Assembly (NCBI GenBank): GCA_949959185.1
Contig: CATLIX010000017.1
Span: 1 to 58,265, forward strand
DNA from: an uncultured Eubacterium sp.
Lineage (GTDB): Bacteria; Bacillota; Clostridia; Lachnospirales; Lachnospiraceae
Direction of reading: 5' to 3'
DNA length: 58,265 nucleotides
A model generated the notes under the pieces. It ran no database searches. It was given only the letters and a program-made list of their open reading frames with translations, and was not told the origin of the DNA. Positions 23,749-58,011 of this stretch are shown one piece after another (within the stretch, counting starts at the first letter, position 1; the number at the start of each line of letters is the position of its first letter). Made by a program: the position numbers and the translations under genes.

Positions 23749-23784
23749 CGATTTCTGTAAATCAGATTTAACATGGAGGCGATT

Positions 23785-24639
23785 ATGAAGAAAATTCTTA
23801 TTACAGGCTGCAATGGACAGCTTGGACGAGCACTGAATCAGATTTATGATGGAGCATATCTGATTAACACGGATGTGGCGGAGGGAGAAGGACGGAAGGC
23901 GCTGGATATTACAGATGTGGATGCAGTTTTAAAGATGGTGCGGGACGAAAAACCGGATGTTATCATTAACTGTGCGGCTCACACTGCAGTGGAACTCTGC
24001 GAGAGCCAGGAAGATCTGGCTTACCGCATTAATGCCATCGGAGCGCGGAATCTGAGCATTGCCGCTGCCCAGGTGGATGCAAAGCTCATTCAGATTTCCA
24101 CAGATTATGTGTTTGACGGAAATGGGACAAGGCCCTACAGGGAGTTTGATACTCCAGGGTCTGACAGTGTTTACGGCAAGACAAAGCTGGAAGGAGAACG
24201 GTTTGTAAAAGAATTTGCACCGAAGCACTTTATTTTGCGGACTGCCTGGCTCTATGGAGACGGGAAGAATTTCCTGAAAACCATGCTTCGGCTGTCCGAG
24301 ACAAACCAGGAAGTGAAGGTGGTCAATGACCAGTTCGGCAACCCCACCAGCGCGAAAGAGCTGGCAAGGCTGATTCATTTTCTGGAACCGGGGGAAAATT
24401 ACGGAACCTTTCATGCCACCTGTGAGGGACAGTGCAGCTGGGCGGATTTTGCAGCGAAGATATTTGAACTGGCAGGGAAATCCACAAAGGTCATCCCCAT
24501 TTCCACAGAAGAATATAACGCAAAAGTAAAAAGGCCTGCATATTCTGTTCTGGACAATTATATGCTGCGTCTGACCACGGATTACCGGATGGCAGACTGG
24601 GAAACAGCATTGCAGGAATATATGGACGAGTTACAGTAG
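23785..24639 (+). CDS. rfbD: dTDP-4-dehydrorhamnose reductase
   Basis: RfbD (RmlD) performs the last step of dTDP-L-rhamnose synthesis, NADPH-dependent reduction of dTDP-4-keto-L-rhamnose. The 284-residue product has the Rossmann motif ITGCNGQLGRAL at the N terminus, the segment INCAAHTAVELCE, STDYVFDG, and the catalytic YGKTKLEGE (Tyr-x3-Lys). The ATG at 23773 is part of the ribosome binding region; GGAGG at 23775-23779 supports the start at 23785. It lies 17 kb from the other three rhamnose genes (41239-44006) but completes the pathway with them. Confidence 0.95.
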   Translation: MKKILITGCNGQLGRALNQIYDGAYLINTDVAEGEGRKALDITDVDAVLKMVRDEKPDVIINCAAHTAVELCESQEDLAYRINAIGARNLSIAAAQVDAKLIQISTDYVFDGNGTRPYREFDTPGSDSVYGKTKLEGERFVKEFAPKHFILRTAWLYGDGKNFLKTMLRLSETNQEVKVVNDQFGNPTSAKELARLIHFLEPGENYGTFHATCEGQCSWADFAAKIFELAGKSTKVIPISTEEYNAKVKRPAYSVLDNYMLRLTTDYRMADWETALQEYMDELQ

Positions 24640-27312: not shown

Positions 27313-27915
27313 GTGTATCATAGATTAGATGAGATTCTGCTTCAGCAGAAGGAAAATATTGAAAAGGTCCGGGAGAGCGGATATCCGGAGCAGGTATCCC
27401 ATGCTGTCCGGCTCCAGCTTGAGGCGTTGCGGCAGGGGAATAAAATACTGATTGCAGGAAACGGAGGTTCCGCTGCGGATGCCCAGCATCTGGCAGGAGA
27501 GCTGGTAGGCCGGTTTCTGAAAGAGCGGAAAGGCCTTGGAGCAGTGGCTCTGAGTACCGACACTTCCATTCTCACCTCTGTTGGAAATGATTATGGATAC
27601 GGAGAAATTTTTGCCCGGCAGGTGGAGGCCCTGGGCAGGCCGGGAGACGTGTTCCTGGGGATTTCCACCAGCGGGAATTCGGAAAATATTATAAGGGCGG
27701 TAAAAAAAGCGCGGGAGCTGGGACTTGTCACCGTCTGCCTGACAGGGCGGGACGGAGGAGAACTGAAAGAACTCTGCGACTGTAATATGGTGGTGCCTCT
27801 GGAAGAAACGCCCAGAATCCAGGAATTTCACACCATGACGGTACATATGATGTGCGAACTGGTGGAAGAAGGTATGGCGGAAAACCAGTCTGAGGAAATG
27901 GCAGGTAAGTTATGA
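27313..27915 (+). CDS. gmhA: Sedoheptulose-7-phosphate isomerase
   Basis: GmhA converts sedoheptulose-7-phosphate to D-glycero-D-manno-heptose-7-phosphate, the first step to nucleotide-activated heptose. The 200-residue product (from the GTG) is a SIS-domain protein with LIAGNGGSAADAQHLAGELVGRF, ALSTDTSILTSVGNDYGY, the phosphate loop GISTSGNSENII and the C-terminal catalytic His region EFHTMTVHMMCELVEE. A frame extends to an ATG at 27286 with no ribosome binding site; GGAGG at 27301-27305 supports GTG at 27313. The stop overlaps the GT9 start by ATGA. Confidence 0.93.
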   Translation: MYHRLDEILLQQKENIEKVRESGYPEQVSHAVRLQLEALRQGNKILIAGNGGSAADAQHLAGELVGRFLKERKGLGAVALSTDTSILTSVGNDYGYGEIFARQVEALGRPGDVFLGISTSGNSENIIRAVKKARELGLVTVCLTGRDGGELKELCDCNMVVPLEETPRIQEFHTMTVHMMCELVEEGMAENQSEEMAGKL

Positions 27916-30582: not shown

Positions 30583-31090
30583 AGCAGTATTTTTAGACCG
30601 GGACGGAACCATCAACCGGGATTTCGGATATGTATACCAGAAAGAAAAACTGGAATTTCTGCCTGGAGCAGCAGAAGCTCTGAAACAAATCCGGCAGGCG
30701 GGATTTCTCCTGATTGTCATTACCAATCAGTCGGGGATTGCCAGAGGATATTTTTCCCTGGAACAGTACCGGGAATTTGAAGCATTTTTTCTGGACAGGC
30801 TGAAGGAACAGGATGTATGGGTGGATAAAGTATATTTCTGCCCCCATGGAGCGGAGGAGGGCTGCCTTTGCCGGAAGCCGGAAACCGGCCTGTTTTATCA
30901 GGCGGCGAAAGAATTTGACATTGACTGGAGCCGGTCTTATGCCGTAGGGGACAGGGAGCGGGATCTGTGTATCTGCAGCAGGGAACCGGTGACCGGGATT
31001 TTGTATGGTTCAGGGGAAAGATCCGAGCCGGATGTAATCTGTCTGGAAAGCTGGGCGGAGATTGCAGAAGTAATCTGCCGGAACCGCTGA
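30575..31090 (+). CDS. gmhB: D-glycero-beta-D-manno-heptose-1,7-bisphosphate 7-phosphatase
   Basis: GmhB removes the 7-phosphate between the two HldE steps. The 171-residue HAD phosphatase has DRDGT with nucleophile Asp8 and acid/base Asp10, VITNQSGIARGYFS, and the structural zinc ligands CPHGAEEGCLC. KPETGLFYQAAKEF and AVGDRERDL complete the HAD motifs. It overlaps the hldE stop by eight bases. With gmhA and hldE it completes a route to ADP-D-glycero-beta-D-manno-heptose; the epimerase HldD was not identified in the window. Confidence 0.93.
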   Translation: MNKAVFLDRDGTINRDFGYVYQKEKLEFLPGAAEALKQIRQAGFLLIVITNQSGIARGYFSLEQYREFEAFFLDRLKEQDVWVDKVYFCPHGAEEGCLCRKPETGLFYQAAKEFDIDWSRSYAVGDRERDLCICSREPVTGILYGSGERSEPDVICLESWAEIAEVICRNR

Positions 31091-41238: not shown

Positions 41239-42318
41239 ATGAGAACTTATCTTGTAACCGGAGGAGCCGGTTTTATCGGCTCAAATTATATTCATTATAT
41301 GTTCCGGAAATATGATAACGAAATCAGGATTATCAATGTGGATAAACTGACTTATGCGGGAAATCTGGAAAATCTGAAAGATGTGGAATCCAGAGATAAC
41401 TACACCTTTGTAAAAGCTGATATCTGCGATAAGGAGAAGATTAGCAGAATATTTGAGGAAAATGACATTGACCGGGTGGTGCACTTTGCGGCAGAGAGCC
41501 ATGTGGACCGCAGTATCCGCAATCCGGAAGTGTTTGTGCAGACCAATGTGCTGGGCACAGCAGTGCTTCTGAACTGTGCCAAAGCAGCCTGGGAGCAGGA
41601 AGACGGAAGTTTTAAGGAAGGAAAGAAATTTTTGCATGTTTCCACAGACGAGGTGTACGGTTCCCTGGAGGAAGACGGGGCTTATTTCTATGAGACAACT
41701 CCCTATGATCCTCACAGCCCTTATTCCGCCAGTAAGGCCAGCTCCGATTTTCTGGTAAAGGCCTATATTGACACTTATCATTTTCCGGCCAACATTACCA
41801 ACTGTTCCAATAATTACGGGCCTTATCAATTCCCGGAAAAGCTGATTCCCCTGATTATCAACAATGCGCTGCAGGGGAAGAAACTTCCGGTATACGGAGA
41901 CGGGAAAAATGTGCGGGACTGGCTCTATGTGGATGACCATGCCAAAGGGATTGATATGGTGCAGGAGCATGGAAAGCTGGGTGAAACCTACAATATCGGC
42001 GGACATAATGAGAAGCAGAACATTGAAATTATCAATATTATTATCGAAACCCTGCAGGAAATGTTGCCGGAGGACGACCCAAGGCGGAAACTGGTGAGCA
42101 AAGATCTGATTACCTATGTGGAAGACCGGAAAGGACATGACAGAAGGTATGCCATCGCCCCGGATAAAATCAAAGCTGAAATCGGCTGGGAGCCGGAGAC
42201 CATGTTCAAAGAAGGAATCCGAAAGACCATTGCCTGGTTCTTTGAGCATGAGGACTGGATGAAAAATGTAACCAGCGGCGATTATCAGAAATATTACGAG
42301 GAAATGTACGCAAAGTAA
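41239..42318 (+). CDS. rfbB: dTDP-glucose 4,6-dehydratase
   Basis: RfbB (RmlB) makes dTDP-4-keto-6-deoxyglucose, the second step of dTDP-rhamnose synthesis. The 359-residue product has VTGGAGFIGSNYIHY (NAD binding), VHFAAESHVDRSI, STDEVYG, and catalytic YSASKASSD. NCSNNYGPYQFPEKLIPL and GDGKNVRDWLYVDDHA are family-specific. AAAGGAGA precedes the ATG. A hairpin and palindromic element copy C separate it from rfbA, which would usually be adjacent. Confidence 0.97.
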   Translation: MRTYLVTGGAGFIGSNYIHYMFRKYDNEIRIINVDKLTYAGNLENLKDVESRDNYTFVKADICDKEKISRIFEENDIDRVVHFAAESHVDRSIRNPEVFVQTNVLGTAVLLNCAKAAWEQEDGSFKEGKKFLHVSTDEVYGSLEEDGAYFYETTPYDPHSPYSASKASSDFLVKAYIDTYHFPANITNCSNNYGPYQFPEKLIPLIINNALQGKKLPVYGDGKNVRDWLYVDDHAKGIDMVQEHGKLGETYNIGGHNEKQNIEIINIIIETLQEMLPEDDPRRKLVSKDLITYVEDRKGHDRRYAIAPDKIKAEIGWEPETMFKEGIRKTIAWFFEHEDWMKNVTSGDYQKYYEEMYAK

Positions 42319-42364: not shown

Positions 42365-42419
42365 GTCTTACAGGAAATCCCCTGTCACACTAAAGGGTGA
42401 AAGTATCTTCCTGTAAGAC
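42365..42419. repeat. Dispersed palindromic intergenic element, copy C
   Basis: GTCTTACAGGAA (42365-42376) and its exact complement (42408-42419) flank a 31-base core containing TCAC...GTGA. Compared with copies A and B, TATAGG has become TACAGG in one arm and CCTATA has become CCTGTA in the other, keeping the pair. It sits inside the rfbB-rfbA interval. Confidence 0.82.
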
Positions 42420-42422
42420 AAC

Positions 42423-42488
42423 GCCCTCCGGGCGGGATGCGCAGTTCGCGGAGAGGAAATCTATTGCCAGGCAATCCGCTCACGCGCG
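42423..42488. repeat. 66-base GC-rich hairpin module after copy C
   Basis: It matches 17805-17870 at 63 of 66 positions, in the same orientation and spacing to the palindrome. It ends 28 bases before the rfbA start codon. One in-frame reading through it artificially extends rfbA upstream ([20 protein letters not shown]). Confidence 0.78.
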
Positions 42489-42516
42489 ACAAAATGGAAT
42501 CAGAAGGAGGAGAACC

Positions 42517-43395
42517 ATGAAAGGAATTATTCTGGCGGGAGGCGCCGGAACCAGGCTGTACCCGCTGACAAAGGCTATTTCCAAGCAGATTATGCCGGTG
42601 TATGACAAACCCATGATTTATTATCCCCTGTCGACGCTGATGCTGGCAGGGATTCGGGAGGTGCTGATTATTTCCACACCCAGGGATTTGCCGGTGTTTG
42701 AGGATTTGCTGGGAGACGGAAGCCAGCTCGGCATGAAATTTGCGTATGCAGTACAGACGGAGCCCAGGGGGCTGGCAGACGCTTTTATTATCGGCGCTGA
42801 TTTTATCGGTAAAGACGCTGTGGCACTGGTGCTTGGAGACAATATTTTTTACGGGCAGAGTTTTTCAAAGGTGCTGCTGAATGCGGCCAGTCGGACGGAG
42901 AGCCAGCCGGGAGCCACGATTTTCGGTTACTATGTGCGAGACCCCAGAGAGTACGGTGTGGTGGAATTTGATGAAGCAGGAACTGCCATTTCCATTGAGG
43001 AAAAACCGGAACATCCCAAATCCAACTATGCGGTACCGGGACTGTATTTCTATGACAATGACGTGGTGGAGATTGCCAGGAATGTGAAACCTTCCGGCCG
43101 GGGAGAAATTGAGATTACCAGTGTCAATAACGAGTATCTGAGCCGTGGGAACCTGAAAGTGGAAACCCTGGGCCGGGGATTTGCCTGGCTGGACACCGGG
43201 AACCACGATATGCTGCTGGCAGCGGCTGATTTTGTGTCAGCATTCCAGAAACGGCAGGGAATGTATATTTCCTGTATTGAAGAAATCGCTTACAAGCGGG
43301 GCTTTATTGATGCGGAGCAGCTGAAAAAGCTGGCGGAACCTTTGCTGAAAACAGAATACGGACAGTATCTGATGGAAATTGCGGCAGGGCTGTAA
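42517..43395 (+). CDS. rfbA: Glucose-1-phosphate thymidylyltransferase
   Basis: RfbA (RmlA) makes dTDP-glucose from dTTP and glucose-1-phosphate, the first step of dTDP-rhamnose synthesis. The 292-residue product begins [24 protein letters not shown], with the nucleotide loop [34 protein letters not shown] and [20 protein letters not shown]. The open frame extends 40 codons upstream through the repeat module, but AGGAGGAG at 42505-42512 fixes the ATG at 42517. rfbC follows after 29 bases. Confidence 0.97.
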
Positions 43396-43424: not shown

Positions 43425-44006
43425 ATGGGAAAGATTAAAGTGACGGATAACTGCAACGGAATTGCAGGGCTGAAAGTAATTGAGCCGGCAGTGTTCGGCG
43501 ATGCCAGAGGCTATTTTATGGAAACCTATAATTATAATGATTTTGCAGAGGCAGGCATTGACTGCACCTTTGTGCAGGATAATCAGTCCGCCTCCAGAAA
43601 AGGTGTTTTGCGGGGGCTGCATTTTCAGATTAACTATCCTCAGGATAAACTGGTCCGGGTGGTAAGAGGACAGGTGTTTGACGTGGCTGTGGATTTGCGT
43701 GAGGGCTCCGAAACCTTTGGAAAATGGTTTGGTGTTACTCTGTCTGAAGAAAATAAAAAGCAGTTTTTTATTCCGAAAGGATTTGCCCACGGATTTGTGG
43801 TGCTGTCCGATTATGCGGAGTTTTGCTATAAGGTAACTGATTTTTACCATCCCAATGACGAGGGAGGCCTGTTGTGGAAAGACAGCGGCATCGGTGTTCA
43901 GTGGCCCATGCCGGAGGGCATGACCGAGGAGGAGCTGATTCTGTCAGATAAGGACAAAGTCTGGGGCGGTATTGAGGAGTATATAAGCAACAAAAAGGAA
44001 AGGTAG
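43425..44006 (+). CDS. rfbC: dTDP-4-dehydrorhamnose 3,5-epimerase
   Basis: RfbC (RmlC) epimerises C3 and C5 of dTDP-4-keto-6-deoxyglucose. The 193-residue cupin has FGDARGYFMETYNYNDF, FVQDNQSASRKGVLRGLHFQ with the catalytic His (LRGLHFQ), QDKLVRVVRGQVFDVAVDLR and IPKGFAHGFVVLSD. AAGGAG precedes the ATG. With rfbA, rfbB and the distant rfbD it completes the rhamnose pathway. Confidence 0.96.
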   Translation: MGKIKVTDNCNGIAGLKVIEPAVFGDARGYFMETYNYNDFAEAGIDCTFVQDNQSASRKGVLRGLHFQINYPQDKLVRVVRGQVFDVAVDLREGSETFGKWFGVTLSEENKKQFFIPKGFAHGFVVLSDYAEFCYKVTDFYHPNDEGGLLWKDSGIGVQWPMPEGMTEEELILSDKDKVWGGIEEYISNKKER

Positions 44007-47321: not shown

Positions 47322-47804
47322 CTACTTTTTTATAACAGATATATCCTGTTTCATTGCTTCATAAGTTTCCACACTGTCTTTGTAACGGTTGTAAGTCGAG
47401 GTATAGCAGGATTCTATGGTATTTAACCGCGGCAGAATCAGATTTTCCTGTGTTAATTCAATCTTTCTGACCCTTTCTTTGAGTTCCTGTACATCGCCTT
47501 TGAGTTCCTGTACATCGCCTTTGAGTTCCTGTACATCGCCTTTCAGCAGCGCTACATCGCCTTTGAGTTCCTGTACGTCGCCTTTCAGCAGCGCTACGTC
47601 ACCTTTGAGTTCCTGTACATCGCCTTTCAGCAGTTCTACGTCGCCTTTGAGTTCCCGTACATCAGTTTTGAGCCCCTGTACATCAGTTTTGAGCCCCTGT
47701 ACATCAATTTTGAACTCCTGAATATCATCTTTGAGTCCCTGTATATCTTCCCTGACGGGGTCAAGGATTTTTGATATGGCAAGTAATAATTCATTGTCTG
47801 TCAT
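47322..47804 (-). CDS. Coiled-coil protein with 13 consecutive heptad repeats
   Basis: The 160-residue product starts MTDNELLLAISKILDPVRED and then has 13 exact seven-residue repeats of the type KGDVQEL (residues 25-115, DNA 47460-47732), ending in a short conserved-looking tail (ERVRKIELTQENLILPRLNTI...YNRYKDSVETYEAMKQDISVIKK). Unbroken heptads with Val and Leu at the core positions predict a straight, probably multimeric coiled coil. Three variants of the unit (QEL, ALL, QGL) alternate, a sign of recent duplication of 21- or 42-base units. The frame extends to an ATG at 47822, but GGAGG at 47812-47816 on this strand supports 47804. No signal peptide or membrane helix; function unknown. Confidence 0.8.
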   Translation of the reverse strand: MTDNELLLAISKILDPVREDIQGLKDDIQEFKIDVQGLKTDVQGLKTDVRELKGDVELLKGDVQELKGDVALLKGDVQELKGDVALLKGDVQELKGDVQELKGDVQELKERVRKIELTQENLILPRLNTIESCYTSTYNRYKDSVETYEAMKQDISVIKK

Positions 47805-47910
47805 TGTATCGCCTCCGTTCATTCTGTGGAGTGTTTCGCATTTCAGGTTCTCTGGTTATATCACGATATGTATCTTTTTGATTTTCATCATATTTCCCTG
47901 TTCAGGAAAA

Positions 47911-48886: not shown

Positions 48887-49714
48887 ATGAACGATACATC
48901 AGGAAATATCCTTACGGAGATAGTCCAAAACCGCCGGCTCATCAGAAGTCTGGCCAAAAATGATTTCAAAACCAAATTTGCAGGTTCTTATCTGGGAACT
49001 ATCTGGGCCTTTGTACAGCCGGTGGTCACCGTACTGATTTACTGGTTTGTCTTTGACAAGGCCATAGGCATGAGGGTTTCCATACGGAGCGAACTTCCCC
49101 TGCCTTATGTACTGTGGCTGGTGGCAGGCATTGTGCCCTGGTTTTTCTTTTCAGACTGTATCAGTGCCGGAACATCCGTACTGGTGGAGTATAATTATCT
49201 GGTGAAAAAAGTGGTGTTCAATATAGATATTCTGCCGGTGGTGAAAGTATTTGCTTCCATTTTTGTACATGTGTTTTTTGTATTGTTTATGATGGGGCTT
49301 TTTCTGTGCTATGGCTATCCGCCGGATTTTTATGTGCTGCAGGCACTGTACTACAGTGCCGGGGTATTGCTGCTGGCGCTGGGATTAAGCTATTTTACCA
49401 GTGCAGTGTCAGTGTTTTTTCCGGATATGCGCCAGATTGTGAATATTGCCCTGCAGGTGGGGATCTGGATGACTCCTATTATGTGGAATCTGGACGATAT
49501 GAGGGAGAAAATACCTTCTTTTCTGCTGATTATACTGAAATGCAATCCCCTCTATTATATTGTGATGGGATACCGGGAAACATTTATCGACAAAGTCTGG
49601 TTCTGGGAACATCCGGGCATGACCGTGTATTTCTGGGCTTTCACCGGAATTGTATGCCTGCTGGGCGTAAAAATATTCAAACGGCTGAAAATACATTTTG
49701 CAGATGTGCTGTAA
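48887..49714 (+). CDS. wzm: Polysaccharide ABC transporter permease Wzm
   Basis: The 275-residue ABC-2 type permease exports completed lipid-linked polysaccharide. It has an N-terminal amphipathic gate region (RRLIRSLAKNDFKTKFAGSYLGTIWAFVQPVVTVLIYWFVF), six helices, and the characteristic GIWMTPIMWNLDDMREKIP and KCNPLYYIVMGYRE segments of the TagG/Wzm/KpsM family. It may equally be called TagG or RfbA-type. The ATPase Wzt follows 75 bases later. Confidence 0.93.
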   Translation: MNDTSGNILTEIVQNRRLIRSLAKNDFKTKFAGSYLGTIWAFVQPVVTVLIYWFVFDKAIGMRVSIRSELPLPYVLWLVAGIVPWFFFSDCISAGTSVLVEYNYLVKKVVFNIDILPVVKVFASIFVHVFFVLFMMGLFLCYGYPPDFYVLQALYYSAGVLLLALGLSYFTSAVSVFFPDMRQIVNIALQVGIWMTPIMWNLDDMREKIPSFLLIILKCNPLYYIVMGYRETFIDKVWFWEHPGMTVYFWAFTGIVCLLGVKIFKRLKIHFADVL

Positions 49715-49789
49715 GAAGTTCGGACGCAGCCGCAGACAGAATCGGATGTTCCTCACGTGAATGTTGAAGCAGGCATAAAGGAGTAAAAC

Positions 49790-51052
49790 ATGCAGGAGAC
49801 AGCAATTAAAATAACCGGAGTCAGCAAAATATATAAACTTTACGATACGCCGTCTGCCCGGCTGAAAGACGCCCTGGGGCTTTCCCGCAGGCAGGTATAC
49901 CGGGAACATGCGGCCCTTCACGATATCACGCTGGAAATAAAAAAGGGCGAGACTGTGGGTATTATCGGTACCAACGGTTCCGGAAAATCCACTCTGCTGA
50001 AAATTATTACGGGGGTGATTCGCCAGACACAGGGAACCGTGGAGGTAAATGGGAGAATTTCTGCTCTGCTGGAACTGGGAGCCGGATTTAACAACGAATA
50101 TACCGGAATTGAAAATATATATTTACAGGGAACCATGATGGGATTTTCCGGAGAGGAAATAGATAAAAAAATGGCGTCCATACTGGAATTTGCAGATATC
50201 GGCGATTTTGTCCATCAGCCGGTGAAAACATATTCCAGCGGAATGTTTGTGCGTCTGGCCTTTGCAGTGGCGATTAATATTGACCCGGAAATCCTGATTG
50301 TGGACGAGGCATTGTCCGTGGGAGACGTGTTTTTTCAGTCCAAATGCTACCGGAAATTTGAGGAATTCAAAGAAATGGGCAAGACGATTCTGTTTGTGAG
50401 CCACGATTTGAGCAGCATTACTAAATACTGTGACCGGGCAGTGCTGCTGAACAAAGGGGACAAAGTGATGGAAGGCACTCCCAGGGAAGCAGTGGACCGG
50501 TTTAAAATGGCGCTGGTGGCCCAGGAAGAGGAACAGCGCAGAGAGAATTCTTCCCTGTGGCAGCCGGACCATACCGGGAAGAAATGGCGGGACAGTTTGT
50601 CGGTGAATCCGGAGACACTGGAATACGGGGATAAGAAAGCGGAAATTGTCGACTTTGCAGTGGTGGATAAAACCGGAAAAATTTCCAATGTAATTGAAAA
50701 GGGCGGCAGATTCACCATTAAAATGAAAGTGCGGTTTCAGGAAGAGGTGGCGGAGCCCATTTTTGCCATTACACTGAAAAACCGGATGGGGATTGAGCTG
50801 ACAGGCACCAATACCATGCTGGAGCAGGTGCCCATTGAGCCGAAGAAAGCCGGGGATGTCCAGACTGTCAGCTTTACCCAGAATATGAGGCTGCAGGGAG
50901 GCGAGTACCTGCTGTCTTTTGGGTGCACCGGATATGAGCAGGAAGAATTCAGGGTGCACCACAGACTGTATGATGTGTGCAGCATTGCTGTTATTTCAGA
51001 TAAAAATACCGTAGGATATTTCGATATGGAATCTGAGGTGGAGACAGAATAG
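49790..51052 (+). CDS. wzt: Polysaccharide ABC transporter ATPase Wzt with glycan-binding domain
   Basis: The 420-residue product couples ATP hydrolysis to glycan export with Wzm. The N-terminal ATPase (about residues 1-240) has Walker A IIGTNGSGKST, signature YSSGMFVRLAF and Walker B ILIVDEALSVGD with LFVSHDLSS. The C-terminal domain (about 275-415, IVDFAVVDKTGKISNVIEKGGRF, AITLKNRMGIELTGTNT, LQGGEYLLSFGC) is the Wzt_C jelly-roll type. In E. coli O9a that domain recognises the capped chain end before export. Its presence predicts that this glycan also carries a terminal modification. The ribosome binding site is AAAGGAG. Confidence 0.93.
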   Translation: MQETAIKITGVSKIYKLYDTPSARLKDALGLSRRQVYREHAALHDITLEIKKGETVGIIGTNGSGKSTLLKIITGVIRQTQGTVEVNGRISALLELGAGFNNEYTGIENIYLQGTMMGFSGEEIDKKMASILEFADIGDFVHQPVKTYSSGMFVRLAFAVAINIDPEILIVDEALSVGDVFFQSKCYRKFEEFKEMGKTILFVSHDLSSITKYCDRAVLLNKGDKVMEGTPREAVDRFKMALVAQEEEQRRENSSLWQPDHTGKKWRDSLSVNPETLEYGDKKAEIVDFAVVDKTGKISNVIEKGGRFTIKMKVRFQEEVAEPIFAITLKNRMGIELTGTNTMLEQVPIEPKKAGDVQTVSFTQNMRLQGGEYLLSFGCTGYEQEEFRVHHRLYDVCSIAVISDKNTVGYFDMESEVETE

Positions 51053-51098
51053 AATCCCGGAAGATTCGGGAGTAAATCAGATAAAGGAACAGAGCGGA

Positions 51099-53561
51099 AT
51101 GGAAAAGTTTAATGTGGTAAGAGTCCGGTTTCATATAGAAGAAAAGCAGACGCTGGTGATTCAGGGCTGGAAATATAATATGAAGCCGGAGGACAGACTG
51201 GAAATCACGCTGGACGCAAAGGAGCTTCCCTGGGTTCAGAACAGCTACGACGGAATGGAAGTGCGGCAGCGCTATATGATTTACGATTTGGGGATTGAGG
51301 AAGAATATTTTCTCTACGTGACACTGCCGGAAGTCCTGGAGGGCAAAAAAGAACTGGTATTATGGGTGGTTGACGGTGAAGCAGATTCCCAGGGAGAAGG
51401 AAGACGCCCGGTCTACCGGGAAAAAGTATCTCATCTGCAAAAACTTCAAAATGAAATCGATTTCTTCCTGGAACAGGTGACTCTGGAGCAGGAGCATTGT
51501 TATATCAAAGGCTGGGCGGCTTCGGCTTCTCCAGTTGCGGTTCAGGTAAAAGGGCCGGGCGGAAGGCTCCTGGAGAGCCAGGTTTCCTGGCATGAGCGCA
51601 GGGATGTAACTCAGGTGTACCGGGAAGTTTCCAATCTGCCGGACAGCGGATTCGAGATTGTGCTGCCCCATCACGGAATGTCCGGCGTTCACCTGGAGCT
51701 GTCCAACGGAAGCCGGAAAAGCCAGGTGAAAGTGCCCATTGTATCCACGTTCTTTTTTGAGAATATGCTGGGAAATAACTATCTGGGCAAAGGGGCCAGA
51801 TTCCTGCAGCGCCATGGCTGGAAGCAGTTCTGCACCAGAACCATGCAGGTGCTGGCAAAAAAGGCCGCCCCCCAGGGAGATTATGAAAAATACCGGCAGG
51901 CAGTAACGCCAGGAAAAGAAGATTTGGAGAAGCAGAAAAGAGAGACTTTTTCTTTGGCGCCCCTGTTTTCCATTGTGGTGCCCCTGTATAAAACGCCGGA
52001 AAAATACCTGGAACAGCTGGTGGATTCCGTCCGAAGCCAGACCTACGGGAACTGGGAGCTGTGTCTGTCCGACGGAAGCGGAGAAGATTCTCCCCTGGAA
52101 AAATATCTGAAGAAACTGGAAAACCAGGATGCACGGGTGAAGGTTGTCCGTAACAGCAGACCGCTGCAGATATCAGAAAACACCAATCAGGGGCTGAAAG
52201 CTGCCGGAGGAGATTTTGTGGTATTTGCCGACCATGACGACCTGCTGACCCCGGACGCCCTGTATGAATGTGCGAAAGCACTGCAGGAACAGCCGGATAC
52301 GGAGCTGATTTACTCCGATGAAGATAAGATTTCCATGAATGGAAAACATTATTTTCAGCCCCATTTCAAATCAGACTACAATCCGGATTTGCTCTGCAGT
52401 ATGAACTACTTCTGCCATCTTGTGGCGGCAAAAAAATCTCTGATTGAAAGGGCCGGTATGCTGGACTCTGCCTTTGACGGAGCGCAGGATTATGACTTTG
52501 TGCTGCGGTGTACGGAGCATACCCAGGCCATTTACCATATCCCGAAGGTATTGTATCACTGGCGTGCCCATGAGAATTCCACAGCGGAGAACCCGGAGAG
52601 CAAGCGGTATGCCTTTGAGGCCGGTATGCGGGCGGTACAGGCTCATTTTGACCGGCTTAAGATTCCTGCCAGAGTGGAAATGGGGGAATATCCCGGACTG
52701 TACCGGACACGCTATCAGTGGAAGGAACAGCCTCTGATTTCTATTCTGATACCCAATAAGGACCATACGGAGGATTTGAATAAGTGTATTCAATCCATTG
52801 AGGAAACCTCCACCTATCGGAACTATGAGTATATTATAATAGAAAATAACAGCGAACTGCCGGAAACCTTTGATTATTACAAAAAGCTGGAGCAGGAAAA
52901 CAAAAAAGTCCGGGTGGTTTACTGGGAGGGAGCATTTAATTTTTCAGCCATCAACAATTTCGGCGCAGAATCTGCCAGAGGCGAGTATCTGCTGCTGTTA
53001 AACAACGATACGGAAATCCGGAACCCGGACTGCCTGTGGGAGCTTTTGGGCCCCTGTATGCGGGAAGATGTGGGGATTACCGGAGCCAGGCTCTACTATG
53101 AAGACGGAACCATACAACATGCGGGGGTGGTGATTGGCTTTGGAGGAATTGCAGGCCATACCTTTATCGGATTTGACGGGAAAGCCAACGGATATTTTTC
53201 CCGTATTATCTGCGCCCAGGACTACAGTGCGGTGACCGCAGCTTGTATGATGACGAAAAAATCCCTGTACCAGCAGGTGGGAGGCCTGACGGAAGAACTG
53301 GCGGTGGCTTTTAATGATATTGATTACTGCATGAAAGTCAGAAAATTTGGAAAGCTGATAGTATATAACCCGTACGCAGAGCTCTTTCATTATGAATCAA
53401 AATCCCGCGGACTGGAAGATTCTCCGGAAAAGCAGGAACGTTACTATAAAGAAATGAAATATTTTGTGACAAAGTGGCAGGAATTTATGGACAGGGGAGA
53501 CCCTTATTACAATCCCAATCTGACGTTGTCCAAAGCAGATTTTTCTTTAAAGCAGATATAA
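51099..53561 (+). CDS. Double GT2 glycosyltransferase with N-terminal beta modules
   Basis: The 820-residue protein has an N-terminal region with two beta-sandwich-like modules marked by IQGWKYN (about 21-27) and IKGWAAS (about 136-142). GT2 domain 1 (about 288-530) has SIVVPLYKTPEKYLEQLV and ADHDD at about 377-381. GT2 domain 2 (about 545-800) has SILIPNKDHTEDLNKCI, LNNDTE at about 634-639 and the base-containing FNDIDYCMKV. Tandem GT2 enzymes often build alternating linkages in rhamnan-type polymers; since dTDP-rhamnose genes are present, rhamnose is a reasonable donor for one domain. The GW modules may bind the growing chain. It is between wzt and the capping-enzyme candidate. Confidence 0.85.
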   Translation: MEKFNVVRVRFHIEEKQTLVIQGWKYNMKPEDRLEITLDAKELPWVQNSYDGMEVRQRYMIYDLGIEEEYFLYVTLPEVLEGKKELVLWVVDGEADSQGEGRRPVYREKVSHLQKLQNEIDFFLEQVTLEQEHCYIKGWAASASPVAVQVKGPGGRLLESQVSWHERRDVTQVYREVSNLPDSGFEIVLPHHGMSGVHLELSNGSRKSQVKVPIVSTFFFENMLGNNYLGKGARFLQRHGWKQFCTRTMQVLAKKAAPQGDYEKYRQAVTPGKEDLEKQKRETFSLAPLFSIVVPLYKTPEKYLEQLVDSVRSQTYGNWELCLSDGSGEDSPLEKYLKKLENQDARVKVVRNSRPLQISENTNQGLKAAGGDFVVFADHDDLLTPDALYECAKALQEQPDTELIYSDEDKISMNGKHYFQPHFKSDYNPDLLCSMNYFCHLVAAKKSLIERAGMLDSAFDGAQDYDFVLRCTEHTQAIYHIPKVLYHWRAHENSTAENPESKRYAFEAGMRAVQAHFDRLKIPARVEMGEYPGLYRTRYQWKEQPLISILIPNKDHTEDLNKCIQSIEETSTYRNYEYIIIENNSELPETFDYYKKLEQENKKVRVVYWEGAFNFSAINNFGAESARGEYLLLLNNDTEIRNPDCLWELLGPCMREDVGITGARLYYEDGTIQHAGVVIGFGGIAGHTFIGFDGKANGYFSRIICAQDYSAVTAACMMTKKSLYQQVGGLTEELAVAFNDIDYCMKVRKFGKLIVYNPYAELFHYESKSRGLEDSPEKQERYYKEMKYFVTKWQEFMDRGDPYYNPNLTLSKADFSLKQI

Positions 53562-53624
53562 TTTTTGAAAAATTAGTGATAAATACCTGTTTTAGCAGAT
53601 AAGGAACCGGGAATGGAGGATACT

Positions 53625-55787
53625 ATGGAAAAAATCGGAAAGGTTGTGCTGGATACCGCCTGTTATCCGGGAGAGGATTTATACAGCGACGGAGCTGTGG
53701 AAGACCGGATTCTGGAACTGGTCAGGACATATCCGGAGCAGGAATACAATCAGGTGATTGCCAGAGAGCAGGACTGGGCGGTGATGTATCATCTGGCCCA
53801 TGAGCGGGGCAATATTCTGAGCTGGTATCCCTTTGAACCGGGAAGCAAACTGCTGGAAATCGGTTCCGGCTGCGGCGCGGTGACCGGCGCGGCGGCAGCT
53901 TCCGCAGCTTCCGTCACCTGTGTGGATTTGTCCATGAAGCGCAGCACCATCAACGGAGTGCGTCATCAGGACCGGGAGAATATTAAAATCTGTGTGGGCA
54001 ATTTTCAGGATATCGAAAAAGGGCTGGAGCAGGATTTTGACTATGCGACACTGATTGGCGTATTTGAATATGGCAGAGGCTATATGGAGGGGGAAAAGCC
54101 CTACCATAAGTTTCTGACTACGGTGATGAACCATTTAAGACCCGGCGGAAAACTGCTGATTGCCATTGAAAATAAACTGGGGCTGAAATACTGGGCAGGC
54201 TGCCGGGAGGACCATACGGGGACTTTTTTTGAGGGACTGGAAGGGTATCATCATACGGAAGGAGTCCGCACCTTTTCCCGTCCAGAGCTGATTCGGATTC
54301 TGGAAGAATGCGGATATGAGGACTACCGGTTTTACTATCCCTATCCGGATTATAAATTTCCAACGGTCATTTATTCCGATGAATATCTGCCCGGAACCGG
54401 GGAACTGAACCGGAATATCTGTAATTTTGACCGGAACCGTCTGGTACTGATGGATGAAGGCCGGGTATTTGACCAGCTTTCTGAAGACGGTCTGTTTCCC
54501 CTGTATGCCAATTCCTTTTTTGTGGAAATAACGAATCCCTCCAATGATGGGGAATCAGAAAAAGAGCAGGTGCTTTACACGAAATATTCCACGGGCCGGG
54601 CTCCGGAATTTGCCATCCGAACCTGTATCGGCAGAGACGTCCGGGGCGGATATTTTCTGTACAAAACAGCAGAATATCCCCAGGGGCGTCATCATATCCA
54701 ATCAGCAGCGAAAGCCGGAGCAGAACTTGAGAAGCTCTGGGGAGGAAAAGGTATGCTGCGGCCCAATCGATGCAGACTGGAAGACGGACGGGTATTTTTT
54801 GAATATCTGAAAGGGACTACTCTGGAGGAAAAACTGGACAGGCTGCTGGAACAGGGAGAAGAACAGCAGGTCCGGGAATGGATGGAAGCAGCCTTTGACA
54901 GAATACTGGCCGGCGCGCCCACCCAGGAATTTCAGATAACACCGGAGTTTCAGCAGGTATTCGGACAGGTATCCTTTCAGGAGCCGGAACCGGCTTTTTC
55001 TGCAGCAGATGTGGATTTGATTTTTTCCAATCTGTTGCTGACAGAAGACGGGAGCTGGCATGTGCTGGATTATGAATGGACCTTTTTCTTTCCGATTCCG
55101 GCGGGCTACGTTCTCTGGCGCGCATTTCACTACTATACGGAAGGAGCGGAAGGAAGAAAAAAATTAAAAGAAGACTTAACTCTGTGCAGGAAATATGGAA
55201 TCTCCGGAGACAGAGAAGAACAGTATAAAATAATGGAGCAGAATTTCCAGGCATATATCAGAAAAGGCTACGTTCCTGCCGGAGAGCTGTACCGCACCAT
55301 GGGCAAACAGGCCTTACCGCTGGGAGAACTTCTGGCTGAGACAGACAGGAGAAGAATCCAGGTGTACCTAGATTACGGACAGGGATTTTCCGAGGAGCAA
55401 TCCTTTTTCCTGGACCAGGGAGTCCGGCAGGAGATTACCGCTGAACTTACTATTCCGGCAGGGGTTTCCGGCCTCTGGCTGGATCCGGCCCTGAGTTCCT
55501 GTATGTTAAAGGATGTGAAACTGTTCTGGATTGGTTCGGACGGGCAGACGTCGCCTGTGAAATACAGCACTACCGGGTTTGAAATGGAAAAAAACTGTTA
55601 TTTATTTGACAATTCTGACCCAAAGATTATAATAGAAGAAATCCCTGAGGAGAACAGAAGAATGAAAATTTCCTGGCGTATCAGTATTCTGGAGGAGGAA
55701 ACGGCAGTTATGCTGATGGACAGGCTGAATGCCAGGGGACGGATGAAAAAGAAAGTACGGGGTCTGCTCCGAGGGCAGGAACCATAA
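53625..55787 (+). CDS. Methyltransferase-kinase fusion, candidate glycan chain-terminating enzyme
   Basis: The 720-residue protein starts with a class I SAM methyltransferase (about residues 40-300; KLLEIGSGCGAVTG at 76-88, VTCVDLSM, HLRPGGKLLIAIENKLG). A region with kinase-like features follows (about 315-520): FLYKTAEYP as possible nucleotide-binding strand, FFEYLKGTTLEEKL as hinge, DVDLIFSN (Asp462/464, Asn469) as catalytic loop and HVLDYEW (Asp482) as metal-binding strand. A C-terminal beta-rich domain ends the protein. Methyltransferase plus kinase next to wzm-wzt matches the logic of WbdD, which methylates and phosphorylates O-antigen ends to stop elongation and license export. The start at 53613 is possible; GGAGG at 53615-53619 favours 53625. 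Confidence 0.7.
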   Translation: MEKIGKVVLDTACYPGEDLYSDGAVEDRILELVRTYPEQEYNQVIAREQDWAVMYHLAHERGNILSWYPFEPGSKLLEIGSGCGAVTGAAAASAASVTCVDLSMKRSTINGVRHQDRENIKICVGNFQDIEKGLEQDFDYATLIGVFEYGRGYMEGEKPYHKFLTTVMNHLRPGGKLLIAIENKLGLKYWAGCREDHTGTFFEGLEGYHHTEGVRTFSRPELIRILEECGYEDYRFYYPYPDYKFPTVIYSDEYLPGTGELNRNICNFDRNRLVLMDEGRVFDQLSEDGLFPLYANSFFVEITNPSNDGESEKEQVLYTKYSTGRAPEFAIRTCIGRDVRGGYFLYKTAEYPQGRHHIQSAAKAGAELEKLWGGKGMLRPNRCRLEDGRVFFEYLKGTTLEEKLDRLLEQGEEQQVREWMEAAFDRILAGAPTQEFQITPEFQQVFGQVSFQEPEPAFSAADVDLIFSNLLLTEDGSWHVLDYEWTFFFPIPAGYVLWRAFHYYTEGAEGRKKLKEDLTLCRKYGISGDREEQYKIMEQNFQAYIRKGYVPAGELYRTMGKQALPLGELLAETDRRRIQVYLDYGQGFSEEQSFFLDQGVRQEITAELTIPAGVSGLWLDPALSSCMLKDVKLFWIGSDGQTSPVKYSTTGFEMEKNCYLFDNSDPKIIIEEIPEENRRMKISWRISILEEETAVMLMDRLNARGRMKKKVRGLLRGQEP

Positions 55788-55829: not shown

Positions 55830-57197
55830 ATGAGAAGACGAGAACAGTACAAGCATTTATTGAATCTGGCGGCAAACTGCATAATGCTGGCTCTGGAGGC
55901 AGTCATGTTCGGTTATCTGTGGTATGAGATTTATTATCCCATGCTGGAGAAGGCCAACCGGCCCTGGCACAGAGGAAACTGGGCTGTCATCGGGATTTAC
56001 ATGCTGATACTGTATTTTTTTACCAGAACCTTTGGAGGATACCGGATTGGCTATCTGCGGATTACCGATATCTGTCTGTCCCAGATACTTTCCATTTTCT
56101 GCGCCAACGTGATTGGCTATCTGCAGGTATGCCTGGTGGCCAACGATTATATGCCGGCCCACCCTATGATTGTGCTGACCGGAGCGGAGCTCCTGGTGAT
56201 TCTGCCGGGGGTATATCTGGTGCGTTTTATCTACACCAGGCTGTACCCGCCCAGAAAAATGATTGTGATTTACGGGGAACATTCGCCCCTGGAACTGATA
56301 GATAAAATCAATGCCCGGAAAGACAAATACAATGTGTGCGCCACAGCCAGCGTGTACCTGGGATATGAGGAGCTTTATCTGCGGATTCTGGAATACGAAG
56401 CGGTGGTGCTCTGCGACCTGCCCACCAGTATGCGCAATCCCATTTTGAAATTCTGCTTTGACCAGAACAAACGGACTTATATTACGCCGAAAATTTCAGA
56501 TATTATACTGACGGGTACGGAGCAGATTCATCTTTTTGACTCGCCGCTGATGTTGTCCAGAAACCGGGGGCTGCCCATTGAACAGCGGTTTGTAAAGCGG
56601 GCCATGGACATTGTGCTGTCTTTGATTGCCATTGTGATTTCCTCGCCGGTGCTGCTTCTGATTGGACTGAGTATCAAATTATACGACAGAGGGCCTGTAT
56701 TTTACACTCAGGAACGACTCACCAGAGACGGAGAAGTGTTCCGGATTATCAAATTCCGCAGTATGCGGATGGATTCCGAGCGGGAAGGAGCCCAGTTAGC
56801 CCGGAAGGACGACGACCGGATTACCCCGGTGGGCAGAATCATCCGTCGGACCCATTTTGACGAGCTGCCCCAGATATTCAATATCCTGAAAGGAGAAATG
56901 TCCTTTGTGGGGCCGAGGCCTGAGCGGGAAGTGATTGCAAAAGAATATGAAGCGGTGATACCGGAATTCAGTTTCCGCCTGAAAGTCAAGGCAGGGCTTA
57001 CGGGATATGCCCAGATATACGGAAAATATAATACCACACCTTACGATAAATTAAAACTGGATTTAACATATATTGAAAACTATTCCTTCTGGCTGGATAT
57101 CAAACTGATGCTGATGACCTTTAAGATTATTTTCCAGAAAGAAAACACAGAAGGGATTGATAAAAAGCAGAAGACAGCCATCCGCAGGCAGAACTGA
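55830..57197 (+). CDS. Polyprenyl-phosphate glycosyl-1-phosphate transferase (initiating enzyme)
   Basis: The 455-residue enzyme starts glycan assembly by moving a sugar-1-phosphate onto undecaprenyl phosphate. It has four N-terminal helices, a central CoA-binding-like regulatory region (KMIVIYGEHSPLELIDKINARKDKYN), then a membrane re-entrant helix and the catalytic bacterial sugar transferase domain. That domain carries KRAMDIVLSLIAIVISSP, FRIIKFRSMR, THFDELPQIFNILKGEMSFVGPRPE and KAGLTGYAQIYGKYNT. This is the long (WbaP/CpsE/EpsL-like) form. It is a likely initiator for the glycan exported by Wzm/Wzt. AAAGG lies before the ATG. Confidence 0.92.
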   Translation: MRRREQYKHLLNLAANCIMLALEAVMFGYLWYEIYYPMLEKANRPWHRGNWAVIGIYMLILYFFTRTFGGYRIGYLRITDICLSQILSIFCANVIGYLQVCLVANDYMPAHPMIVLTGAELLVILPGVYLVRFIYTRLYPPRKMIVIYGEHSPLELIDKINARKDKYNVCATASVYLGYEELYLRILEYEAVVLCDLPTSMRNPILKFCFDQNKRTYITPKISDIILTGTEQIHLFDSPLMLSRNRGLPIEQRFVKRAMDIVLSLIAIVISSPVLLLIGLSIKLYDRGPVFYTQERLTRDGEVFRIIKFRSMRMDSEREGAQLARKDDDRITPVGRIIRRTHFDELPQIFNILKGEMSFVGPRPEREVIAKEYEAVIPEFSFRLKVKAGLTGYAQIYGKYNTTPYDKLKLDLTYIENYSFWLDIKLMLMTFKIIFQKENTEGIDKKQKTAIRRQN

Positions 57198-57222
57198 CAG
57201 AAAAAATACATGGAGAAAACAC

Positions 57223-58011
57223 ATGGCAGACGTGGAGCGTATGGAACAGAACCGGAAGGATGACCGAATCAGTATCGTGATTCCTGTTTACAATTCAGAA
57301 AAGTATATAGAAGCAACCATCCGGTGCATACAGGCCCAGACCTGTCCGGACTGGGAAATTATTTTTGTGGACGACTGCTCCGGGGACAGGAGCGTTTCCA
57401 TTATCGAGTCTTATCTGTCTGAAGACAGCCGTATGCACCTGTACCGGAATGAGCGGAACATGGGGCCTGCTTATACCCGGAACCGGGGAATCAAAAAGGC
57501 CTGCGGCAGGTATCTGGCCTATATGGACGCAGATGACCTGTGCGACCGGGACAAGCTGGAAAAGCAGCTTCGGTTTATGAAAAAAACAGGCTGCGCCTTC
57601 TGTTTTACGGGCTATGAATTTGCAGGAGCAGACGGAGTGCGCAACGGGAAAGTAGTTCACGTTCCCCAAAAGATTGATTATAAAGGGGCCCTGAAACGCA
57701 CCACCATTTCCACCATAACCGTTATGTTTGACCGGGCTCAGATTCCCACGGAAGTGCTGACCATGCCTTTAAATGCCAGAGGGGAAGATACGGCCACCTG
57801 GTGGAAAATTCTGCGGCATGGATATGTGGCATATGGAATTGACGAACCTCTGTCTGTTTACCGGAGATATCCGGGCAGCAGGTCTTCCAACAAGCTGGAC
57901 GCAGCCTGGGGAACCTGGAAAATGTACCGGGAATGCGAACATCTGTCCCTGTTAAAAAGCAGTTACTATTTTTGCCACTATATTTTAAATGCATTAAAGA
58001 GAAGAATGTAA
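57223..58011 (+). CDS. GT2 glycosyltransferase
   Basis: The 262-residue product has ISIVIPVYNSEKYIEATIRCIQ, IIFVDDCSGD, AYMDADDL as the DxD motif and LNARGEDTATWWKILRHGYVAYGI near the C terminus, the EDxxxW-type base motif. It resembles galactosyl/glucosyl-transferases acting early on lipid-linked sugars, and it lies directly after the initiating transferase, so it may add the second sugar. The frame from 57157 overlaps the previous gene; GGAGA supports the ATG at 57223. It is the last gene in the window. Confidence 0.85.
   Translation: MADVERMEQNRKDDRISIVIPVYNSEKYIEATIRCIQAQTCPDWEIIFVDDCSGDRSVSIIESYLSEDSRMHLYRNERNMGPAYTRNRGIKKACGRYLAYMDADDLCDRDKLEKQLRFMKKTGCAFCFTGYEFAGADGVRNGKVVHVPQKIDYKGALKRTTISTITVMFDRAQIPTEVLTMPLNARGEDTATWWKILRHGYVAYGIDEPLSVYRRYPGSRSSNKLDAAWGTWKMYRECEHLSLLKSSYYFCHYILNALKRRM

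Follow-up and report, generated by a model that had tools for sequence, protein, structure and literature searches.

Introduction

The locus described here raises a simple question: which end group, if any, does a Gram-positive bacterium place on a glycan before an ABC transporter exports it? Cap-and-check glycan export is best known from Gram-negative bacteria. The stretch of DNA that we analyzed, hereafter the window, comprises 58,265 nucleotides from an uncultured Eubacterium sp. of the Lachnospiraceae (contig CATLIX010000017.1), and it encodes an ABC glycan exporter beside a fusion of a methyltransferase and a kinase-like domain.

Results

An export locus with a candidate chain terminator

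Genes for Wzm, Wzt, a double GT2 and a methyltransferase-kinase fusion are consecutive on one strand between 48887 and 55787. An ORF check of the window thus agrees in coordinates, strand and order with an earlier, sequence-only reading of this DNA. The features of the window that bear on the question are as follows.

23773..24639, + strand: rmlD, last dTDP-L-rhamnose step (TIGR01214, over cut-off)
41239-42318, + strand: rmlB, dTDP-L-rhamnose supply (TIGR01181, over curated cut-off)
42397-43395, + strand: rmlA, dTDP-L-rhamnose supply (TIGR01207, over curated cut-off)
43425-44006, + strand: rmlC, dTDP-L-rhamnose supply (TIGR01221, over curated cut-off)
48887..49714, + strand: Wzm-like ABC transporter permease, 275 aa (PF01061, E 1.4e-18)
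49790..51052, + strand: Wzt-like ATPase with C-terminal domain of cap-binding type, 420 aa (PF00005, PF14524)
50618..51028, + strand: Wzt_C domain, residues 277-413, predicted chain-end reader (PF14524, E 1.3e-43; PDB 2r5o, E 2.2e-7)
51099..53561, + strand: double GT2, 820 aa, candidate polymerase (PF00535, two stretches)
53613..55787, + strand: methyltransferase-kinase-beta domain fusion, 724 aa, predicted chain terminator (AlphaFold2; homology of ORF6-O7 type)
53613..54512, + strand: class I SAM methyltransferase domain, residues 1-300 (PF13489, PF08241; counterparts of the ORF6-O7 SAM site)
54513..55352, + strand: APH/Mph-like kinase-fold domain, residues 301-580 (AlphaFold2, Foldseek, invariant residues)
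55356..55688, + strand: beta-strand domain, residues 582-692, candidate carbohydrate-binding module (DSSP of model)
55695..55769, + strand: single short C-terminal helix, residues 695-719 (DSSP of model)
55830..57197, + strand: polyprenyl-phosphate sugar-phosphate transferase, candidate initiating enzyme (PF02397, E 4.3e-65; TIGR03025, over cut-off)
57157..58011, + strand: TuaG-like GT2 glycosyltransferase (PF00535, E 4.8e-37; NF047683, E 2.2e-79, under cut-off)

The N-terminal ~285 residues of the double GT2 carry no annotation, and the start of the last gene was set mechanically, so that its true start may be later. Scans of the DNA for promoters and terminators returned sites no more numerous than in shuffled sequence. 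The window also holds all four dTDP-L-rhamnose genes, which the earlier reading did not mention. At least one rml homologue is found in 66 of the 80 loci L031-L110, and rmlC in 64.

The fusion contains a conserved kinase fold

Structure prediction bears out the suspicion that the middle of the fusion is kinase-like. AlphaFold2 models the fusion with confidence (pLDDT 91.5, pTM 0.84) and gives residues 301-580, at a pLDDT of 88.1, a kinase fold. For this domain Foldseek returned 552 PDB matches at E<=0.001, macrolide phosphotransferases first, at low TM-scores of 0.25-0.49. No substitution is seen at K351, D468, N473, D486, E488 or W489 in any of the 53 aligned sequences, the window protein among them. 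The two motifs on which the suspicion had rested, DLIFSN (D468-N473) and then LDYEW (L485-W489), contain five of these invariant residues and are therefore not chance occurrences. All 53 sequences match PF13489 and PF08241 at the methyltransferase N-terminus, and only one matches Pfam Pkinase (E 0.0083); the kinase-fold domain of the window protein matches no Pfam or NCBIfam model.

One could envision that the kinase fold is a scaffold and that the methyltransferase acts alone, leaving the kind of O-methyl cap that is known for E. coli O8 and Geobacillus WsaE. Methyl-only caps are indeed reported in the same export class (PMC2943079, PMC9445017), but the positions of the lysine, the catalytic Asp, the Asn and the metal-binding Asp do not vary in the 53 sequences, and the domain is retained when it is split off or joined to glycosyltransferase (GT) modules. 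We regard a scaffold role as highly improbable.

Beyond the kinase fold lie a beta-rich third domain and a short helix at the C-terminus, neither of which the sequence-only reading had described.

WbdD shares the domain order and has a ruler that the fusion lacks

The fusion had been likened to WbdD, and the structural part of this comparison stands. WbdD structures were the only Foldseek matches of about 550 columns among those listed for the whole model; they align both domains in the same order, methyltransferase then kinase, at 11-12% identity and an rmsd of 16-19. A sequence relationship did not emerge. WbdD is not among nine PDB matches of the single protein at E<=1, the 14 matches of the kinase profile at E<=10, or the best 60 of 76 matches of the whole-protein profile, the remainder of which have E 0.12 or more. 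Nor is it in the best 50 Foldseek matches of the isolated kinase, to which Mph/APH enzymes are nearer. We thus set WbdD aside as the closest relative in favor of the Klebsiella O7 type described below.

WbdD of E. coli O9a and Klebsiella O3 is described as working, like the window system, with a separate polymerase and Wzm/Wzt, and as having a coiled-coil ruler that is missing from the window fusion (PMC3482155). The 32 residues after the beta domain contain one 25-residue helix in the model (DSSP), with no long coiled coil found there, and fewer than 60 residues follow this domain in 46 of the 53 aligned sequences. The idea that the cap sets chain length through a WbdD-type ruler consequently finds no support, and ruler-type control has no place in our explanation. 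WbdD also has a C-terminal membrane helix and a polymerase recruitment site; what the model of the fusion shows at its C-terminus is the short helix. A heptad-repeat protein at 47322-47822 was considered as a ruler acting in trans and rejected; none of the ORFs in loci L001-L110 is homologous to it.

The closest known enzyme is a Klebsiella O7 terminator

Comparisons with the O7 and WbdD enzymes relied on residues given in the literature, on a homologue each from Pseudomonas and Citrobacter, and on Foldseek and PDB sequence searches. On this evidence ORF6-N, the Klebsiella O7 terminator, takes the place of WbdD as the closest enzyme known. It is reported to put methyl-phosphate on terminal rhamnose at O3; its authors state that the O7 kinase differs from WbdD in sequence and structure, and that a long coiled coil marks this terminator strategy (PMC11231755). 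A plasmid-encoded protein of Pseudomonas asturiensis links the two: all six methyltransferase residues published for O7 occur in it under the same numbers, and its D443 is two residues away from the published O7 catalytic Asp, D441. Window residues Y24, Y59, G84, G86, D105, Y153 and D468 align with Y28, Y66, G91, G93, E112, Y158 and D443 of this protein. Five of the six O7 SAM-site positions, aligned in this way, are thus identical; the sixth changes from E112 to D105, a position with D in 32 and E in 21 of the 53 aligned sequences.

Profile comparisons point the same way. Against P. asturiensis the methyltransferase scores 307.3 and the kinase 73.6 (best of ten shuffles, 21.3 and 15.4). The kinase profile matches the P. 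asturiensis region at E 6.3e-11 and Citrobacter at 2.8e-7, with an unrelated control at 0.33. The beta domain matches the corresponding P. asturiensis region weakly (28.2, against 15.2 for the best of ten shuffles), and its profile has no match in the Citrobacter homologue. At blastn sensitivity, the Citrobacter gene found no homologue in E. coli genomes.

As described, O7 ORF6-N runs in the same order, from methyltransferase through an unannotated APH-like kinase to a beta-rich domain, and its gene is clustered with wzm, wzt and rml; the C-terminal GT modules of ORF6-O7 recur in some relatives of the window protein (PMC11231755). In ORF6-O7 the domain behind the kinase is an Ig-like CBM, and the window beta domain is a candidate for a carbohydrate-binding module. 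In contrast to the O7 enzyme as reported, the window fusion lacks a long coiled coil, its candidate polymerase is the separate double GT2, and its host has no outer membrane. Its kinase lysine, furthermore, is invariant in the Lachnospiraceae family, whereas H or R aligns with it in the two proteobacterial homologues.

Homology to ORF6-N also bears on the chemistry of the cap. Terminal rhamnose could be phosphorylated and the final cap be something other than methyl-phosphate, such as a cyclic phosphate, or a phosphate and an O-methyl group on different hydroxyls. Precedent exists in a Gram-positive, ABC-exporting system, the C. difficile SLCT-11 glycan, which is reported to end in 2,3-cyclophosphoryl-rhamnose (PMC6254364). 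Moreover, 14 of the 80 loci encode the methyltransferase and the kinase in two ORFs, so fusion does not force coupling on one phosphate. Against this, the methyl-phosphate product reported for ORF6-N (PMC11231755) and the fact that both domains match the same proteobacterial proteins make such a different cap unlikely.

The exporter carries a Wzt_C domain

That Wzt ends in a domain of glycan-binding type is supported by its membership of the Wzt_C family. The PF14524 match spans residues 277-413 and profile positions 3-143 of 143 (E 1.3e-43), fused to the ABC_tran ATPase. The solved Wzt-like chain 8dku matches residues 6-402 (E 1.5e-81), and the C-terminal 160 residues alone match 2r5o (2.2e-7), 7k2t and 8dku (3.5e-5), and 8dky and 6o14 (about 1e-4; 6o14, 9.5e-5). 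We take 8dku to be a chain of the same Aquifex aeolicus protein as 6o14, a structure of its carbohydrate-binding domain (CBD). Recognition of the chain end by Wzt_C domains has been reported (PMC9445017, PMC11231755). The A. aeolicus CBD binds a modified chain end, as is predicted for the window domain; the modification described is 3-O-methyl, with no phosphate (PMC9445017).

Across loci L031-L110, Wzt_C is found in 76 of 80 and a Wzm homologue in 78, three of which (L034, L039 and L041) have it only as a downstream second copy. The second Wzm/Wzt pair of close relatives was considered and rejected: the L031 copy lacks Wzt_C and lies beside an IspD-like gene and two CDP-glycerol glycerophosphotransferase genes, and thus looks like a teichoic acid system.

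The kinase pairs with one Wzt_C subtype

A survey of 299 Lachnospiraceae genomes, of the kind that the earlier reading had proposed, shows that kinase module and Wzt_C track each other: 159 have the kinase, 180 Wzt_C, 149 both and 109 neither (Fisher p 2.8e-40, a value that overstates independence because these genomes share ancestry). Of 148 genomes with a strong Wzt_C match, 147 have the kinase; the remaining one is G170, whose contig breaks off within a gene of this methyltransferase family beside Wzt. Where both places were listed, in 139 genomes, kinase and Wzt_C lie on one contig in 134, and all 134 pairs are within about 5 kb on the same strand. For comparison, we used 20 Wzt_C loci from genomes chosen for lacking the kinase; given this choice, two observations on them carry weight, a missing methyltransferase and unlike CBDs. 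The stretch covered, which reaches about 7 kb downstream in 16 of these loci and less than 4.2 kb downstream of Wzt in four, contains no member of the methyltransferase family in any of them. Compared with the window CBD, theirs match at E 3e-12 or more weakly, or not at E 1e-3, and those of kinase-linked loci score 157-282 bits. In Lachnospiraceae, the kinase pairs near-obligately with one Wzt_C subtype.

This pairing speaks to the possibility that the fusion adds its phosphate and methyl groups to side chains or internal residues while Wzt_C recognizes something else. The lack of a coiled-coil ruler and the few loci without Wzt_C would suit such decoration; the nearly one-to-one tracking of a single subtype, the unlike CBDs of kinase-free genomes and the chain-end reading reported for Wzt_C domains (PMC9445017, PMC11231755) argue against it, and we consider it very unlikely.

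Gene architecture varies among the 80 loci: 63 encode a methyltransferase-kinase fusion, nine the two parts split, five split parts with the kinase joined to a GT, and three a methyltransferase-kinase-GT protein. Adjacency of kinase and Wzt_C is kept through fusion, fission and insertion of one gene between them, and is seen again in the distant homologues L112 and L113. Most fusion homologues are linked to Wzm/Wzt. The counter-case that the earlier reading had named, homologues in loci without Wzm/Wzt, does arise in a minority: L068 and G188 (locus L118) show neither gene within the stretch covered. L068, which lies beside a double GT2, is the only such case among 77 loci with upstream sequence. 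In what was examined, the kinase has no Wzt_C neighbor in at least L068, G076 and G188 within the family, and in G485, G436 (Wzt without a CBD), G595 and G364 outside it. The relatedness of the genomes, and the modules of L068 and L118 with no Wzm/Wzt in the stretch covered, would fit an adjacency due to operon inheritance only, with an enzyme that modifies a polyprenyl-linked adaptor or other small substrate unrelated to export. Such an origin is scarcely credible given an adjacency that survives rearrangement and reappears in distant homologues.

Discussion

Homology, structural models and analogy with characterized systems lead us to consider it likely that the fusion adds a methyl-phosphate cap to a rhamnose-containing glycan and that Wzt reads this cap before export. 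The computed results behind this explanation are the domain folds, the conserved catalytic residues, homology of the O7-terminator type, pairing with a Wzt_C subtype and nearby dTDP-rhamnose genes. The sugar-phosphate transferase and GT2 enzymes would build the glycan on polyprenyl phosphate. The fusion would end each chain: its kinase would add phosphate to a hydroxyl group of the sugar at the non-reducing end, and its methyltransferase would then methylate that phosphate, as ORF6-N does on rhamnose O3. We propose that the C-terminal domain of Wzt recognizes the cap once it is complete, which would restrict export by Wzm/Wzt across the single membrane to capped chains.

A capped, ABC-exported glycan would not in itself be new to Gram-positive bacteria; such glycans are known from Geobacillus and C. 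difficile. Geobacillus stearothermophilus is reported to export a rhamnan through Wzm/Wzt with WsaE, in which a methyltransferase is fused to GT domains; its cap is 2-O-methyl-rhamnose, its target is the S-layer protein, and the available part of the report mentions no kinase (PMC2943079). The SLCT-11 S-layer glycan is likewise clostridial, ABC-exported and rhamnose-rich, with phosphate at the non-reducing end; it differs in that the phosphate is cyclic, and no capping enzyme is named in what is available of the report, the words 'kinase' and 'methyltransferase' being absent from its main text (PMC6254364). As a possible known product we looked at Ruminococcus gnavus glucorhamnan, for which our literature search found no gene-level source. 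Among the matching titles and abstract openings listed, with limited coverage of subscription journals, no report of this kinase in Lachnospiraceae was found.

There is an even chance, in our judgment, that about half of the sampled Lachnospiraceae (159 of 299) carry methyl-phosphate cap-and-check export for rhamnose-rich surface glycans, mostly without a ruler. In that case, chain length must be set in another way, perhaps with polymerase and terminator competing, or with the kinase fused directly to GT modules. The missing ruler makes this question directly testable, and the natural architecture variants are ready experiments. If the explanation is correct, the cap-and-check logic of Gram-negative O antigens would be widespread in a major human and animal gut family, and gut glycans would commonly carry an uncharacterized epitope, the predicted methyl-phosphate end group. 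A likely function would then also be at hand for a kinase-fold domain that, in the window protein, matches no Pfam or NCBIfam model.

Gene cluster and fold of the fusion protein

Six plus-strand genes run from 48887 to near the window's end and encode Wzm, Wzt, a double GT2, a 724-residue fusion (53613-55787) that is the predicted chain terminator, a polyprenyl-phosphate sugar-phosphate transferase and a GT2. The gene set that the sequence-only reading had placed at 48887-55787 (Wzm, Wzt with a complete Wzt_C domain in the Pfam search, double GT2 and fusion) is confirmed. The match between this Wzt and solved Wzt-like chains in the PDB spans most of the protein. Searched alone, its C-terminal 160 residues matched chains of the carbohydrate-binding type domain (CBD), led by 2r5o (2.2e-7), which we take to be the Wzt domain of O9a. 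Among named relatives, the nearest come from Lachnospiraceae, the top record at 69% identity. A sigma-70-like promoter match (12/12) lies inside the fusion gene at 55606-55633; such sites are no more frequent in the region than in shuffles.

The middle of the fusion has no covering match in Pfam, NCBIfam or PDB-sequence searches. Pfam Pkinase is matched by one of 53 aligned sequences (E 0.0083), and the kinase profile retrieved 14 PDB sequences at E<=10, protein kinases first, at a non-significant E of 0.11-0.15. An AlphaFold2 model from the 53-sequence alignment (pLDDT 91.5, pTM 0.84) resolves the fusion as follows, listed with one unannotated region of its neighbor.

Features of the fusion model and of the double GT2
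Fusion residues to ~300: methyltransferase
Fusion residues ~300 to ~580: two-lobed domain
Fusion residues 582-692: beta strands
Fusion residues 695-719: single helix
51099-51953, + strand: N-terminal region of the double GT2, ~285 residues, no annotation from the domain search

Modeled alone (pLDDT 88.1), the middle region showed the kinase fold that had been proposed for it, with 552 Foldseek matches in the PDB at E<=0.001. The best 50 of the 552 are macrolide and aminoglycoside phosphotransferases, protein kinases and RIO kinases; with a top E of 1.6e-6 and TM-scores of 0.25-0.49 among these 50, the modeled fold is clear and kinship to the matched kinases is distant. K351, D468, N473, D486, E488 and W489 are invariant (53/53).

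Comparison with WbdD and the Klebsiella O7 terminator

WbdD structures rank 13, 17, 29 and 44 among the best 50 Foldseek matches of the whole fusion model and, among the matches listed, are the only ones to reach ~550 aligned columns. These columns align at 11-12% identity and an rmsd of 16-19, so domain order agrees but domain packing does not.

A second capping enzyme, ORF6-N of Klebsiella pneumoniae serotype O7, is described as combining a methyltransferase and an unannotated, AmiN-like kinase (D441) with an Ig-like CBM and a coiled coil; in vitro it puts methyl-phosphate on O3 of the terminal rhamnose (PMC11231755). We compared the fusion with it through the published O7 residues and two plasmid homologues found by tblastn, from Pseudomonas asturiensis and Citrobacter braakii, both immediately downstream of Wzm- and Wzt-like genes. 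The P. asturiensis protein has exactly the published O7 residues at Y28, Y66, G91, G93, E112 and Y158, and its D443 is near the published D441; the window fusion aligns at all seven positions, with D105 replacing E112. Our domain profiles score 307.3 (methyltransferase), 73.6 (kinase) and 28.2 (beta domain) on the P. asturiensis protein, against 21.3, 15.4 and 15.2 for the best of ten shuffled controls. On the Citrobacter protein the first two score 318.8 and 49.1 (controls 20.0 and 19.9) and the beta domain profile finds no match (8.1 versus 11.4). An unrelated window protein reaches E 0.33 with the kinase profile. The two homologues differ from the fusion at K351: at the aligned position one carries H, the other R.

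Sugar supply and chain length

Four dTDP-L-rhamnose genes in the window each exceed NCBIfam cut-offs, and 66 of 80 loci of homologues carry at least one rml homologue (rmlC 64, rmlA 52, rmlB 45, rmlD 6). Since the O7 cap acceptor is rhamnose (PMC11231755), these genes point to rhamnose as the acceptor here, but do not prove it.

In known terminators of this class, an extended coiled coil is described as the ruler (PMC11231755). The window fusion has 32 residues after its beta domain. Tails in the 53 aligned sequences, two of them trimmed ahead of a GT part, span 0 to 137 residues (<60 in 46, at least 80 in 6), and a rough heptad score makes some of the long ones look like short coiled coils. 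In 8/80 loci GT modules are attached to the kinase. Length control by the cap, as put forward earlier, is unsupported in its ruler form for the window fusion. The WbdD-like reading had the direction right, but it erred on length control and on the nearest relative, which is of the Klebsiella O7 type.

Elsewhere in the window, a 166-residue protein of 21-base, 7-residue repeats (47322-47822, minus strand; 11 register copies) is likely a coiled coil and has no homologue among the ORFs of loci L001-L110. Heptose genes at 27286-31090 encode a SIS-domain protein, a GT9 heptosyltransferase-like protein and a bifunctional HldE-like protein with both rfaE domain models over cut-off, in a Gram-positive host; a 171-residue ORF follows. 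An 837-residue protein with DUF7657 and DUF7654 (24661-27174) lies inside the polysaccharide region. In a close relative (L031, 13413-20177), a second Wzm/Wzt pair lacks Wzt_C. The genes after it encode a GT2, an IspD-like protein, an alcohol-dehydrogenase-like protein and two CDP-glycerol glycerophosphotransferases; the set is probably a teichoic acid export system next to the capping locus.

Pairing with Wzt_C

The fusion had been expected to travel with Wzm and Wzt. Wzt_C is present in 76 of the 80 loci, directly upstream in 69 and, as in the window, one gene removed in seven; three loci lack it where the contig begins nearby, and L068 has neither Wzm nor Wzt within the ~9 kb examined on either side. 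These loci were retained for similarity to the query, and we hence added 299 Lachnospiraceae genomes, evenly drawn and blind to the locus. The proposed co-occurrence held in them: the kinase profile is found in 159 and Wzt_C in 180 (both 149, kinase only 10, Wzt_C only 31, neither 109), although genome kinship limits any p-value for this pairing. Where Wzt_C reaches E<=1e-35 (148 genomes), 147 also carry the kinase; the remaining one, G170, has its contig cut off inside a methyltransferase of the fusion's family. Kinase and Wzt_C share a contig in 134 of 139 genomes with both positions listed, always on the same strand, within 2 kb in 119 and 5.0 kb apart at most, with Wzt upstream in 131.

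Three of the ten kinase-only genomes were inspected: G279 is truncated by a contig end, and G076 and G188 show no Wzt_C in the stretch retrieved around the kinase. By coordinates, the kinase also sits at a contig edge in G277 and G090; G010, G042, G101, G186 and G245 were left out.

Twenty loci were taken from the 31 Wzt_C-only genomes, where the kinase is absent by selection. No methyltransferase of the fusion's family occurs in the stretch examined (~7 kb downstream in 16, 0.2-4.1 kb in four), and matches of their CBDs to that of the window are no better than E 3e-12, or absent at E 1e-3, versus 157-282 bits in linked loci. CBD subtype can thus be predicted from the terminator. In two kinase-free genomes, a Wzt-adjacent protein (L154, 2492-3871; L155, 557-1684) matches the fusion's beta domain but gives no match with either the methyltransferase or the kinase profile, and is possibly another terminator type.

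Precedents and distribution

A capped, length-controlled wall polysaccharide had been expected to be new in Lachnospiraceae. Among Gram-positives, Geobacillus WsaE is reported to cap an ABC-exported rhamnan with a 2-O-methyl group (PMC2943079), and the ABC-exported S-layer glycan of C. difficile SLCT-11 is reported to end in 2,3-cyclophosphoryl-rhamnose, a terminal structure its authors compare with O9a (PMC6254364); capping in Gram-positives is therefore not new. Orthologues of the O7 terminator are named in alpha- and gammaproteobacteria and cyanobacteria, and the words Gram-positive, Firmicutes and Clostridi are absent from the main text of that paper (PMC11231755). Among the records listed from the open-licence literature we found no Gram-positive methyltransferase-kinase terminator of the O7 kind that is this common and this tightly tied to one CBD subtype.

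Phylum-wide, the kinase profile occurs in 9 of 348 genomes, four of them in Lachnospiraceae with the window's own genome counted. Outside the family, G505 has the full Wzm-Wzt_C-methyltransferase-kinase order, G436 has a Wzt without Wzt_C, and no Wzt_C turned up in the stretches retrieved from G485, G595 and G364. Locus L134 (5828-9958), also outside the family, is an exception to the pairing: a 1377-residue protein that matches the methyltransferase profile, and the kinase profile in part, comes after a 259-residue Wzt with no C-terminal domain. Within the 348-genome sample, Lachnospiraceae is where the system concentrates.
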